DNA of 61,027 nt from contig JACREF010000003.1 in NCBI GenBank assembly GCA_016218365.1, positions 1 through 61,027 on the forward strand, in the 5' to 3' direction. The notes under the pieces were generated by a model that worked only from the letters and a program-made list of their open reading frames with translations, was not told where the DNA came from and did no database searches. Each line of letters opens with the position of its first letter. The first letter of the stretch is position 1. The stretch comes from Gammaproteobacteria bacterium. GTDB lineage: Bacteria > Pseudomonadota > Gammaproteobacteria > SZUA-140. Below are positions 39,238 to 46,347 of this stretch, piece by piece. The translations under genes and the position numbers were made by a program.

Positions 39238-39737
39238 TACGTGTCACCCTGAAAATCCTGGGAGGTTCTGAATAATTCGTGTCGTCGCATAACGCCATTG
39301 CCCAGGCCGCGCATGGCGAACTTCCAGATCAGGCAGCGTGATCCCTGTGTTCGTTGAAACCTGGCGCCAGACCGCCCGTGATATAGACTGGACATGCCGC
39401 CCCACTGCCTGACTATACTCTATAGAAACACGTCTTTTCCATATCAGACTACCGGACTGCTAATCCCCAGAACTCGTACTGGTACTAAGATATGTACCGC
39501 TACATTTCGAGGATACGTTCTGTGGCACGCCCGCTTGATGATGAGTTCAATTTCTTGGTATCCAGAAACCGTGATCTGTCCCGAATGGTACTTACTTAAG
39601 GGGGTAGCCGGCGGGTAGCCTGGGTTGAGCGACAGCGAAACCCGGGTTTCACTCCGTTCAACCCAGGCTACCTCCTATCAAAAACGCTTAAGTAAGTACC
39701 ATTCTGATCTGTCCCTGATTATTTCGGTGATTATTTT
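39238..39737. other. Intergenic region carrying MITE copy 2
   Basis: Apart from the MITE at 39583-39704, no gene is supported in these 500 bases. The target of the MITE, around CCAGAAACCGTGATCTGTCCC, resembles text at 43925-43945 and 43998-44020 (CCGTGG-TC-GTCCC), so the insertion went into an existing short dispersed repeat. Confidence 0.6.
39583..39704. mobile_element. 122-bp MITE, copy 2 (inverted)
   Basis: It has the same length and ends as the copy at 33457 but lies in the opposite orientation. It is flanked by an exact 11-bp duplication TGATCTGTCCC at 39572-39582 and 39705-39715. Four substitutions separate the two copies, so both are recent. No transposase gene is in the window; the 11-bp duplication length is in the range known for IS4-group elements, which is only a hint. 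Confidence 0.9.
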
Positions 39738-42141: not shown

Positions 42142-42175
42142 GAATGAGAGATTAGCCATCGGCTTTCAACTTCGC

Positions 42176-42811
42176 CTATTGATCTTGGTAGGTTCTAGCG
42201 AAGTTGATTAACTCCATAGTTGGATCGGACTCAAATTCCGTAGCTAGTTCTATTGCTCTCTCCAAAATGGCGCCTCGCACCCGTGGCGCCATAATCACGC
42301 GCATAAACTTGGGAATACGTTTCGTCATAAAGCAGGATGCAAAATATGCGGCGCTAACTTCCCTTAACGAAGGGCTTAGGTCAATTTCTAACGGCGTGAT
42401 CGACAAGTTAGCCAGTGCATTTTCGAACTCCAAACACGCCAATGAAAACGCTCTGCTAGCGAAGAGGTCTAGCACTCTCTTGAACTGCATCACATGCTCA
42501 GAGGGCGACTCCTGTAGGTGCGTTGAAAGCGCATCATCCAAGATAGCGGTGACTTCCTCTGGGCTACCTTCAAAGAATTCCCGTGATGGGCTCGGACGCC
42601 CAAACGTCTTTTCAAGAAGAGAATGGGCATAACGCTCCGCCGCGTGGCAGTCCTTTACAAGGTACTCTTTGTAAACTTCAAACTTCGTTGGCACCCCCGT
42701 ACCCGAGGAAAGTTGTGCCGCACGTGCCGTTGCCTCGTTTGTGGTTTTTCCGACTTTGACCACGCCGGGCATTGACGGATTTACAAGGACATAGATGATG
42801 CCGTTTGCCAT
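42176..42811 (-). CDS. GIY-YIG (T5orf172-type) domain protein
   Basis: This 211-residue protein has an N-terminal GIY-YIG-like domain at about 3-90: GIIYVLVNPSMPGVVKVGKT supplies the two signature strands, followed by the conserved Arg in TARAAQLS. The C-terminal 120 residues are helical and unassigned. The first 90 residues are clearly related to those of the protein at 44040-45017. The start at 42811 lies just after the stop of the upstream gene (42823), so the two form a pair. A nuclease role is possible, but T5orf172 proteins are poorly studied. Confidence 0.75.
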   Translation of the reverse strand: MANGIIYVLVNPSMPGVVKVGKTTNEATARAAQLSSGTGVPTKFEVYKEYLVKDCHAAERYAHSLLEKTFGRPSPSREFFEGSPEEVTAILDDALSTHLQESPSEHVMQFKRVLDLFASRAFSLACLEFENALANLSITPLEIDLSPSLREVSAAYFASCFMTKRIPKFMRVIMAPRVRGAILERAIELATEFESDPTMELINFARTYQDQ

Positions 42812-42822
42812 AGGTGTTTGTC

Positions 42823-43539
42823 CTAATTGATGCAAGCTGTACTTCGCAGGAACGCGACAGTATTTTCGTACTTCGCTCTTTCGCTATTGCCAAGGGTTTC
42901 ATAGTGTCCAAACTCAGAAAAATAGCTTGCGAGTGTTTGAGCAGTTAATGGCTGTAAATTCCTGAATTCGTTTTGGCAGATGGCGGGCCAGTTCAATACC
43001 GCGCGATTTTGGTGGCCACCACCTTTGACAGGAACAAGATAGTCCTTGATTACTGGCGCTCCGGATCGGAATGTGAATGGGTTTTGCAAGAAGCCATCAC
43101 GAGCCACATCGCATATTGCAATCGAAAGTAATTGTTGAGTCTCTCCGATATAATAAGCACGCAACAATGCATCCCCGGTAAATAAGTCGTGCCTATCTGA
43201 TGCGGATGCCTCAAACCATGACCCATGTGCAATACCTGCGCGCAGCGGTATGCCAAAACGAAAGGCACACCTGAAGAGCTCAAAAGCCCGAGCAATAATC
43301 GCTTTAAGCGAGTCGCTGTCGTCTCCTCTAGTGCGCATGATGATGGTATCCGAGAAGAACCTTTCAGCTATTCCATCTCGTAATTCCTTGGACAATGGAA
43401 GCTCTTCCACATCGGTAGCATCGGCAAGATCGCAAAGCAGCTGCCATGCGGTGCCATTAGATTTTCGCAATACTGATGACATTCCAAGAATATCGAAATG
43501 TGCGACAAATACCTTTTCTTCATCTTCTAGTCCGCGCAT
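42823..43539 (-). CDS. Cyclase-homology-like protein of unknown function
   Basis: This 238-residue protein has the order of motifs of a class III nucleotide cyclase homology domain: VAHFDILGMS (first metal Asp at 16), RFFSDTII (second Asp at 64), LRAGIAHGSW (R100) and TGDALLRAYYIGETQ, which matches the GDAVN.AARLE region. The similarity is by motif only. It starts 14 bp after an attC site with GGGAG before the ATG and abuts the GIY-YIG gene, so both seem to ride on one integron cassette. A signal-making role in phage defence is a hypothesis. Confidence 0.65.
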   Translation of the reverse strand: MRGLEDEEKVFVAHFDILGMSSVLRKSNGTAWQLLCDLADATDVEELPLSKELRDGIAERFFSDTIIMRTRGDDSDSLKAIIARAFELFRCAFRFGIPLRAGIAHGSWFEASASDRHDLFTGDALLRAYYIGETQQLLSIAICDVARDGFLQNPFTFRSGAPVIKDYLVPVKGGGHQNRAVLNWPAICQNEFRNLQPLTAQTLASYFSEFGHYETLGNSERAKYENTVAFLRSTACIN

Positions 43540-43552
43540 ACGTGCTCCCGAT

Positions 43553-43609
43553 GGCTAACGCAAAGCTAAGCTGCGCCGCTTTTTGGCGGCTTGAGCGCAT
43601 AGTCAGGGC
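43553..43609 (-). other. Integron attC-like recombination site (57 bp)
   Basis: Read on the minus strand it ends with GCGTTAGCC (R' core) and begins with GCCCTGAC (R'' core, one base off CTAAC). Between them GCTCAAGC pairs with GCTTAGC, leaving one extra C as extrahelical base, and CCGC/GCGG closes the top. The length of 57 bp is typical of attC sites. It overlaps the last codons of the DUF2442 gene. Confidence 0.72.
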
Positions 43610-43841
43610 ATAGCTGTTGATAAAGAAACTCTGGCGCAAAATCTGCTCCATTCGGCCAGACGATGGTTTCAAGTTCCTTATTCAGATAAAACTCGGAGAA
43701 ACGCGATTTATCCTTCAAAGGCTGAAATATTTCACCCCACAGTTCTTTTTCAAGGTCGACCTCACCTTCTATGCCATCTGAAAACCTTAGCCGGATACGG
43801 TAATCACCTTGATACTCCGCTTCTTGTAATTTCGGCAACAT
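43566..43841 (-). CDS. DUF2442 domain protein
   Basis: This 91-residue protein matches DUF2442: YRIRLRFSDGIEGEVDL at 15-31, then a LWGEIFQPLKD helix and NGADFAPEFLYQQL near the end. DUF2442 genes commonly pair with DUF4160 genes and are suspected to act as toxin-antitoxin-like modules; this is not proven. Here only the tail of a DUF4160 gene remains upstream. The 3' end overlaps an attC site. Confidence 0.85.
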   Translation of the reverse strand: MLPKLQEAEYQGDYRIRLRFSDGIEGEVDLEKELWGEIFQPLKDKSRFSEFYLNKELETIVWPNGADFAPEFLYQQLCPDYALKPPKSGAA

Positions 43842-43920: not shown

Positions 43921-44039
43921 GTATCCAGAAGCCGTGGTCTGTCCCGATTATTCCGTAGCATATCTCCGTCCGACTCAAATCATTCATACCTCACACCGCT
44001 CGAAACCGTGGTCCGTCCCTGATTGTTACCTGATTGTTA

Positions 44040-45017
44040 TTATGCTGTTGTTAGTGATTTTAGGTGCTCGATTACTTGCACGTAACGCTGCTCCCCCGAT
44101 GGATCATTGTGGGTACGGCATATTTCTATAAAGTTTTTCGCTTTACTTGAAATGGCTAACGCATTTTCGGTTATAAATCTTCTTAGCACGTCAGGGGGTT
44201 CTCTTCTGAGCCTGAATTTGTCTGCAAGCAGCATTACGCAACCGGTGATGATTTTTGATAGTTCTAGCCTGGTAAGACGCTGCCCGTCAGGTAACGTGGC
44301 GTCCATATTGTTTATGAACAAAGAAAAGCATTTCTCAGCATTTTTCTGGCTATCTCCCTTTGCAAACAACCTTCCCATTGCCCAGTAGCAATAAACACTA
44401 CCTTTTCTTGCTCCCTCTTTGTAGTATTCCAGTGCTTTTTCTTGATCTTGCCGAACACCTTCCCCCCCCTCATACATCTCCCCAATGTATCCATACGCAG
44501 GGAGAGCGCCTAGTTTTGCTGCTTGGCGGAACAGTCTAAGAGCTTCGGCATAGTCCTCAAGGTAATTTTCTAGCCCGTAATAGTATTGCTCTGCCTCATC
44601 AAAAATTGATGACCATGGAAATGAGTTAGTCATGCATGTATCGAGGTGTAGAGAATCCAACTCATCGGGTTGGCTGTCCTCTAGCAAGGAGTCCGGCTCA
44701 GGTAATGTCATATTGCCATCTATTGCACCGGGCGCCAAATTGACTGCTCTGACGGCCTCATTCACCGGGGCGTTAAAAAACTCTCTGTTATCTGAAACCC
44801 TGAATCCCTGCTGTTCAAGATAGGCATGAACAAAGGATTCAGCGGCAGAGCAGTTCTGAAAAAGTTGTTCGTACACGACGATAAATGGAGTTGGTAAACC
44901 TGTCACTCCAGAAAGTTCTAGCGCTCTTTCTGTGGGGGTGCGTGTGGTCTTTCCCACCTTTACCACGCCAGGCATAGCGCTATTTGCCAAAACATATATG
45001 TAACCAAGATCATCCAT
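44040..45017 (-). CDS. GIY-YIG (T5orf172-type) protein with Sel1 repeats
   Basis: This 325-residue protein opens with a domain (about 3-90) paralogous to the GIY-YIG protein at 42176-42811: GYIYVLANSAMPGVVKVGKTTR and NREFF are shared. An acidic linker follows, then two or three Sel1 repeats at about 150-230 (ALRLFRQAAKLGALPAYGYIGEMYEGGEG; ALEYYKEGARKGSVYCYWAMGRLFAKG) and a helical tail. The start at 45017 follows GGGAG. It lies behind an attC site, so it is probably a cassette gene. Confidence 0.78.
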   Translation of the reverse strand: MDDLGYIYVLANSAMPGVVKVGKTTRTPTERALELSGVTGLPTPFIVVYEQLFQNCSAAESFVHAYLEQQGFRVSDNREFFNAPVNEAVRAVNLAPGAIDGNMTLPEPDSLLEDSQPDELDSLHLDTCMTNSFPWSSIFDEAEQYYYGLENYLEDYAEALRLFRQAAKLGALPAYGYIGEMYEGGEGVRQDQEKALEYYKEGARKGSVYCYWAMGRLFAKGDSQKNAEKCFSLFINNMDATLPDGQRLTRLELSKIITGCVMLLADKFRLRREPPDVLRRFITENALAISSKAKNFIEICRTHNDPSGEQRYVQVIEHLKSLTTA

Positions 45018-45111
45018 CGCGTTCTCCCATCCGAGTTTTGTCATTATCCGCTCTTGACTGGCTCAGCAGGTGAGCCAGTCATCGCGACTGCAATGTGAGC
45101 CTTCCCTTCTT

Positions 45112-45218
45112 GCATAACGTCGCAAATCACCGGCACATTGTAGCGGCGTAAGGCTTGTGGCAGTCGTCACAAACGCAGCGCCGCGGAAATGTGTCCGCGT
45201 GAATTTGCCTTGTTAGCC
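45112..45218 (-). other. Integron attC-like site, long form (107 bp)
   Basis: On the plus strand it runs from GCATAAC (45112-45118) to GTTAGCC (45212-45218). The two halves are imperfect complements over about 40 bases: CGCAAATCAC pairs with the complement of GTGAATTTGCC with one extra base, CGGCACATT matches CGGACACATT, and AGCGGCG matches CGCGGCG. Extrahelical bases and a variable centre are the hallmarks of attC. It separates the DUF2971 gene from the GIY-YIG/Sel1 gene. Confidence 0.78.
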
Positions 45219-45251: not shown

Positions 45252-45944
45252 CTATTGGTCACCTGCTAGAATTATGGCATTACTTCTAATTCGGTCAATT
45301 ATAGGATTACCCGTTACGATCGCTCTTGATACTCGCAAGTCTATTCCGTGCGCCAATTCAAACCAGAACTTTCTTTCACTTTGTTTCATGCGCCAACCGA
45401 GAATCAATTCGACTGGCTCAATGGGAATATAGTCATCTTCCAATTCTGAATCACATATTACCCGATGCTCTTCTTCATACTGCCAATACTTGTATTTAGT
45501 GAGCAACGCTTTTTTGCAGTCAGGAGGCTCGCTAATGTATTCGTTAATATCCTTCGTTGTATCTAGATAGCGCATAGACTCGGCGGCATGAGAGTTAAGA
45601 GTGATTGCGATACAAAGCCCCCTGTGGCTATCAGCATAATGGGACCACATTAATGGAATACCTGGCTTTTTACTTAGGCAAAGCACTTTAAAGCGTGCGA
45701 TAGATTCTCGCCACTTATCATCCAAACAAACAAGGGCTTCATGAAATGCTTTTGTATCCAGATCCTCGGGGATTTTGTCTATGTTATCTATGGCAAGTAA
45801 GTTTCCTTCAAAAGGATCATTTAACTTTTCGAGAACACTAAGCCGCATTCGTTTGTTTAAAATAATATCAAGAACACGCTCTCGTTCTACTTTGTTCTCT
45901 GGTTTGTCTTCTGGCCAACGCTTATATTTGTAATATCTTTCCAA
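45252..45944 (-). CDS. DUF2971 domain protein
   Basis: This 230-residue protein matches DUF2971: YYKYKRW near the start, LSVLEKLNDPFEGN, VLCLSKKPGIPLMWSHYADSHRGLCIAI and KYKYWQYEEEHRVI. The family is widespread in variable genome regions and its activity is not settled. It is AT-rich and lacks a good ribosome site. It is followed by the long attC site and preceded by a GTTAGCC core, so it looks like a cassette gene. Confidence 0.82.
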   Translation of the reverse strand: MERYYKYKRWPEDKPENKVERERVLDIILNKRMRLSVLEKLNDPFEGNLLAIDNIDKIPEDLDTKAFHEALVCLDDKWRESIARFKVLCLSKKPGIPLMWSHYADSHRGLCIAITLNSHAAESMRYLDTTKDINEYISEPPDCKKALLTKYKYWQYEEEHRVICDSELEDDYIPIEPVELILGWRMKQSERKFWFELAHGIDLRVSRAIVTGNPIIDRIRSNAIILAGDQ

Positions 45945-46347
45945 TTTTTACTCCCCAAGCTACATCCATAGTGGCTTCAAAGGCTAACTACAATTAGACG
46001 GCAACAACCCCGTATAAAACCGGGTTCGCGCCGGATAATATCGCAACCGTGCCACCAACCCGCTGTTCCACAAGGAAGTCGCCACGGGAAACGCGGTGTT
46101 GGATGCCGTTATCACGGCGTTCTTTTGATATCGTTTCATAACACATCCGTGTCACAGGGTTATTGGACTATGCCACAGCTGTTGAAATATTGGCAAGTTG
46201 ACCTGAGCCGGCCAGGGCACGGGTTAATCCTAACACCTATAATGCATTGCGTTGCTGCGCAACGCTTGGCGGGTTACGCCTGCGGCTAACCCGCCCTACA
46301 TTCTCACCCCTCTCCCCTACCCCTCTCCCGCATGCGGGAGAGGGGAT
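45945..46347. other. Intergenic: array edge and dispersed repeats
   Basis: GGCTAAC at 45982-45988 is a possible recombination core ahead of the DUF2971 gene, but no paired R'' core is found. Further on come short inverted repeats: GCGTTGC/GCAACGC near 46248-46264, GGCGGGTTA/TAACCCGCC near 46269-46296 and CTCTCCCGC/GCGGGAGAG near 46323-46343. These look like dispersed repeats. No gene is supported. Confidence 0.45.

Follow-up and report, generated by a model that had tools for sequence, protein, structure and literature searches.

A divergent class III cyclase-fold protein and a T5orf172 nuclease-like protein encoded in a probable two-gene cassette of an integrase-less integron array

Class III cyclase folds and integron cassettes in defence

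Among the known nucleotide-signalling defence systems, Pycsar combines the class III cyclase-fold enzyme PycC with an effector, PycTIR or PycTM, that contains a cyclic-nucleotide-binding domain (CNBD) together with a TIR or TM domain; PycC enzymes bind metal via the same Asp pair as other class III cyclases (PMC11224242). CBASS is defined by a CD-NTase (cGAS-like) enzyme. Furthermore, an uncharacterised bacterial family of class III cyclase-like proteins, DUF2652, in which the transition-state residues are incomplete, has been described (PMC4886424). Genes for defence are also carried by chromosomal integrons, which a review describes as biobanks of antiphage systems (PMC12409362).

Here we analyse a gene pair in a 61,027-nucleotide stretch of gammaproteobacterial DNA (contig JACREF010000003.1; the whole of this stretch is hereafter the window) that a sequence-only reading had proposed to encode a cyclase-like protein and a GIY-YIG protein in the layout of cyclic-nucleotide defence systems. 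The two genes are the following:

42823-43539, minus strand: cyclase-fold gene (238 aa; divergent member of an unnamed family, phrog_23933/21097)
42176-42811, minus strand: T5orf172 gene (GIY-YIG superfamily; 211 aa)

The description of the pair given in that reading is borne out. The motifs FDILG, FFSDTI, LRAGIAHG and FTGDALLRAYYIGE follow one another in the first reading frame in the order that is characteristic of class III cyclases; the stop codon of the cyclase-fold gene and ATG 42811 of the T5orf172 gene, on the same strand, are separated by 11 bp, as claimed; and the GIY-YIG assignment of the second protein is upheld by the Pfam matches to T5orf172 (E 1.2e-16; domain score of 61.5 bits compared to the gathering cut-off of 20) and MUG113 (1.5e-10). 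ATG 42811, which is preceded by an AGGA-like ribosome site, is the natural start of the T5orf172 gene; the listed start, TTG 42835, overlaps the cyclase-fold gene. Both reading frames are intact and the two genes are probably co-transcribed; a simple scan for promoters and terminators gave no excess over shuffles, and the Rfam search yielded sub-threshold matches only.

The comparison with the described systems gives a mixed picture. The proposed layout of cyclic-nucleotide defence is retained with respect to the predicted cyclase fold with both metal Asp residues, the GIY-YIG neighbour and the probable placement of the two genes in one cassette, but not with respect to recurrent pairing, a recognised cyclic-nucleotide-binding domain in the partner or conservation of the transition-state residues. 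In particular, the locus resembles Pycsar in that a gene for a class III cyclase fold with the catalytic Asp pair stands beside a gene for a possible effector. Unlike the Pycsar effectors, the partner is a T5orf172 GIY-YIG protein that matches only T5orf172 and MUG113 in Pfam and in which a CNBD, TIR or TM domain was not recognised, and the pairing is not recurrent; among the 31 aligned members of the cyclase-like family, no PADLOC match names a Pycsar cyclase. Compared to CBASS, the locus encodes a class III cyclase fold instead of a CD-NTase, and no PADLOC match to the latter was found. None of the 31 members matches DUF2652. The likeness to chromosomal integron cassettes with defence genes extends to attI, attC, the crossover sites and accessory genes that are PADLOC candidates, the difference being that the integrase is truncated here. 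In the literature searched, we found no description of the two-gene cassette, and what is new here is that the cyclase-fold and T5orf172 genes are integron cargo.

The integron cassette array

The gene pair belongs to a block at 42.1-46.1 kb with a G+C content of 43-50%, compared to about 60-65% in the flanking genes, which by sequence encode an MFS-type transporter and a fructose-bisphosphate aldolase-like protein. Apart from the two genes, the block includes the following features:

45985-46120, minus strand: attI with a truncated 5' remnant of the integron integrase gene (74% over 136 bp, E 1e-24, to the attI/intI start on contig C29 of the same genome)
45252-45944, minus strand: gene of cassette 1, DUF2971 protein (PADLOC candidate PDC-S31)
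45112-45218, minus strand: attC of the DUF2971 cassette (107 nt; R'' GGCTAAC ... R' GTTATGC)
44040-45044, minus strand: gene of cassette 2, a second T5orf172 protein, with Sel1 repeats (Pfam and PADLOC searches)
43566-43841, minus strand: DUF2442 gene directly before the cyclase cassette (Pfam DUF2442, E 3.9e-12)
43553-43559, minus strand: 5' crossover of the two-gene cassette, G^TTAGCC, just upstream of the cyclase-fold gene (homology breakpoint with locus L016)
42152-42162, minus strand: probable R''-side end of the two-gene cassette, CCGATGGCTAA (identical to the reverse complement of the cassette's initial 11 nt)

The case for an integron is made by the homology of attI, the complementarity of the cassette ends and the homology breakpoint rather than by the attC pattern scan, which by itself does not reach significance over 61 kb. 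The attI site in the window is accompanied by the truncated integrase, and a complete integrase of the same genome is encoded at C29:2927-3865 (476.8 bits, compared to the cut-off of 265), so that the host genome appears to have had two integrons. The bottom strand of the DUF2971 cassette attC folds with -51.3 kcal/mol, and its R'' side is complementary to the 5' end of its own cassette over 9 nt (23 of 20,000 shuffles). For the two-gene cassette, the 11-nt complement at 42152-42162 was recovered in none of the 20,000 shuffles of a 142-nt stretch. The closest homologue of the cyclase-fold protein, which is 71% identical and is encoded at locus L016 in a betaproteobacterial MAG, provides the breakpoint: DNA homology between the two loci (71% over 711 bp) starts at 43558, which is the first T of TTAGCC, and stops at 42851, before the T5orf172 gene. 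Because the inverted 11-mers enclose both genes and there is no attC within the 11 bp between them, the cyclase-fold and T5orf172 genes probably form one cassette of an integrase-less array, which supports the 'one apparent cassette' of the sequence-only reading even if 'cassette' is taken strictly as an integron gene cassette. The weak point of this assignment is the missing terminal attC, of which nothing but the R''-side complement can be made out. A DNA search of the genome with the DUF2971-cassette attC recovered no further copies. As the sequence shows, the array runs from the attI remnant through the DUF2971 cassette with its attC, the T5orf172-Sel1 cassette and the DUF2442 gene to the probable two-gene cassette.

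Several minor features of the array and the genome can be mentioned here. The region with attI and the complete integrase spans C29:2775-3865; attC-like sites are located beside this integrase and near the end of contig C24 (950-1021 and 1961-2023 of L024, 4893-4958 of L025) and perhaps represent one array split by assembly. Interspersed intergenic repeats at 39558-39723 and 43921-44038 (27 nt at 93%, and 18-nt inverted arms) resemble mobile repeats of small size, by which an attC may have been interrupted. The T5orf172-Sel1 protein and the nuclease-like protein of the two-gene cassette are 52% identical over 85 residues.

The explanation that we favour overall, by a little over even chances, is that the cargo of this integrase-less integron comprises a divergent cyclase-fold enzyme and a T5orf172 endonuclease that form a likely defence cassette joined by shuffling. 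A possible but doubtful alternative is that the two cassette genes are unrelated, do not act together and survive as mostly silent cargo of a dead array. The deletion of the integrase, the non-recurrent pairing of the two genes (see below) and the often weak expression of sedentary-integron cassettes that are distant from the promoter (PMC12409362) are all compatible with such cargo, but neither reading frame is broken, the ATG of the nuclease gene has an AGGA-like ribosome site before it, and another genome retains the cyclase-fold gene at 71% identity.

The cyclase-fold protein: predicted structure and catalytic residues

An AlphaFold2 model of the cyclase-fold protein, built from a 31-sequence alignment (A6), reached a pLDDT of 89.9 and a pTM of 0.88. 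All PDB matches listed by Foldseek are class III cyclases of the adenylyl or guanylyl type, the best being CyaC (1wc4, E 6.4e-7), and structural realignment (VIA) with class III cyclases gave Z scores of 13-15 over 151-181 residues. PycC is absent among the best 50 fold matches listed, which says nothing either way. At the sequence level, phmmer with the single protein against PDB produced no match, and comparison of the A6 profile with PDB sequences placed adenylate cyclase chains among the best matches, each of them weak (E 0.14-0.5); the family profile also picked up a genuine class III cyclase (L015). Thus, a class III cyclase fold is predicted unambiguously for this protein, and a fold unrelated to cyclases, which according to the sequence-only reading would have spoken against it, is refuted. 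Given this predicted structure and the 71% identical betaproteobacterial protein, the motif pattern goes beyond chance.

The protein shares with the class III cyclase domains of CyaC, Rv1625c and soluble guanylyl cyclase the fold over residues 1-187, the order of the motifs and the two metal-binding Asp residues. It differs from them in the presence of SD rather than GD at the second metal site, in extra C-terminal helices with an invariant Lys and in the lack of a match to the Pfam Guanylate_cyc domain. The two metal aspartates correspond to D16 and D64 in the alignment, and neither residue varies among the 31 sequences; the same holds for R100 and K223, the invariance of the latter depending on one alignment. 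Where class III cyclases have the transition-state Asn and Arg, the cyclase-fold protein has L126 and Y130, and these positions are not conserved but vary across the family in the 31-sequence alignment. Therefore, we do not classify the protein as a canonical cyclase, and catalysis of the classical kind is unproven. Judging from the alignment, the metal site is intact and the catalytic set is altered.

Chemistry performed by the predicted enzyme is likely but unproven. Most likely, D16 and D64 would hold two metals through which the protein binds a nucleoside triphosphate, which it would then convert into a small nucleotide with the help of residues that are not the classical Asn and Arg. The opposite view is that the protein, as a pseudoenzyme or a sensor of nucleotides, binds but does not cyclise NTP and regulates varying partners, such as ParA-like ATPases, nucleases and a sirtuin. 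The variable transition-state positions and the varying partners of the family would fit this view, which we nevertheless deem unlikely: the invariance of D16, D64, R100 and K223 in 31 highly diverged sequences suggests selection for chemistry, and some bona fide cyclases also lack an equivalent of the Asn (PMC4886424). A widespread but unnamed family of plasmids, prophages and integrons with a confidently predicted class III fold that lacks the classical transition-state residues would widen the set of nucleotide-signalling enzymes in bacterial conflicts beyond PycC and CD-NTases.

The cyclase-like family, its neighbours and the possible role of the cassette

No name was assigned to the cyclase-fold protein by Pfam, NCBIfam or PADLOC, and direct searches with this protein alone detected no match in plasmids, phages or viral contigs. 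The family was reached only through one distant genomic match, L002, by which it extends to 50 plasmids, 39 viral contigs and several genomes; two weak genomic matches, L003 and L004, were dropped because, by inspection, they encode unrelated proteins. The family, whose members have changing partners and reside on plasmids, prophages and chromosomes, corresponds to PHROG 23933 and 21097, of unknown function, and has no Pfam or NCBIfam name. The phrog_23933 profile is matched by 30 of the 31 aligned members, and the match of the cyclase-fold protein alone (E 0.0066) marks it as a divergent member. It shares the motifs Q[QE], YxVPxK and LNW with a subfamily that includes L016, L048, L049, L050, L087, L091, L092, L093 and L096.

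To assess the pairing, we examined the neighbours of 63 distinct cyclase-like loci by a profile test. A T5orf172 gene adjoins the cyclase-like gene in only two of these, namely the present locus and L074, where the neighbour encodes a 558-aa protein and is convergent. Conversely, none of the seven independent T5orf172 loci encoding related nucleases has a cyclase-like neighbour. The L016 locus has no nuclease gene; apparent BrnT/BrnA genes follow, by inspection. The sequence-only reading had named the absence of recurrent pairing as grounds for rejection, and this is what the co-occurrence analysis revealed; accordingly, neither a recurrent two-gene signalling system nor a dedicated Pycsar-like pair is supported. 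Because the relatives do not keep both genes together, it would be premature to regard the two genes as a proven new defence system.

The T5orf172 protein matches the PADLOC candidate PDC-S57 (E 7e-27), with which it shares the nuclease-like domain that occupies about residues 1-95 at the N-terminus. Its C-terminal half is absent from the seven related proteins sampled and has no detected relatives in plasmids and the sampled genomes; structure prediction for the protein without an alignment (pLDDT 48) was unusable for a fold search. Given this lack of relatives and the unusable model, the C-terminal half could hide a sensor domain. A dedicated signalling defence can be conceived in which the cyclase senses infection and makes a cyclic mononucleotide that activates the GIY-YIG nuclease via its C-terminal half, following the logic of Pycsar. 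The 11-bp gap on the same strand, apparently within one cassette, the class III fold with intact metal Asp residues and the potential sensor would all suit this scheme; it is rendered quite improbable by the pairing counts in both directions, by the lack of the nuclease in L016 and by the absence of a recognised nucleotide-binding domain in the T5orf172 partner.

The defence cassette joined by shuffling, our preferred explanation, implies instead that the two genes were probably brought together by exchange of cassettes or partners and not by an old obligate partnership. By analogy with its family, the T5orf172 GIY-YIG endonuclease most likely cuts DNA, and the most likely role of the cassette would be defence against phages or other mobile elements. 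A role in conflict is our best guess given that integrons are reviewed as antiphage biobanks (PMC12409362), that the neighbouring DUF2971 and T5orf172 proteins of the array match PADLOC defence candidates and that some family members are encoded beside defence genes. For example, a cyclase-like gene lies 148 bp downstream of the gene for Dsr1, an anti-phage sirtuin, on an Agrobacterium plasmid (L008, 265-4849), and in L086 the cyclase-like gene lies between HsdS-like and HsdM-like genes. Many relatives, however, reside in structural regions of prophages or beside unrelated genes, so that a defence role is plausible but not forced. In the most extreme reading, which seems to us very improbable, a large and so far unrecognised branch of class III cyclase-fold enzymes would supply exchangeable signal makers to many anti-phage effectors and would be paired here with a nucleotide-activated GIY-YIG nuclease; were it true, the cassette would be a new cyclase-effector combination.

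The one recurrent partner is a ParA-like (ParA/AAA_31-like) ATPase encoded directly upstream of the cyclase-like gene in five independent loci (L002, L040, L064, L065 and L070), with gaps of -64 to +3; this combination, a recurrent pair that has no name, belongs with Dsr1 and the HsdS/HsdM genes to the defence context of the family. If the family is active, direct tests can be made of its product and of the changing partners (ParA-like ATPases, Dsr1, T5orf172), and the anatomy of the cassette offers a compact two-gene unit for such testing.

Further arrangements were observed at individual loci. On a Spirosoma plasmid (L009, 3113-4924), the cyclase-like domain is fused behind an N-terminal region of about 290 aa. 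In L071 (4905-8495), the cyclase-like gene is followed by a gene for an 844-aa protein, probably the Pfam HD-CE match. In L043 (1480-3738), by inspection, the cyclase-like gene overlaps a DUF2971-like gene and is preceded by an RloB-like gene, and the three genes possibly form a defence operon.
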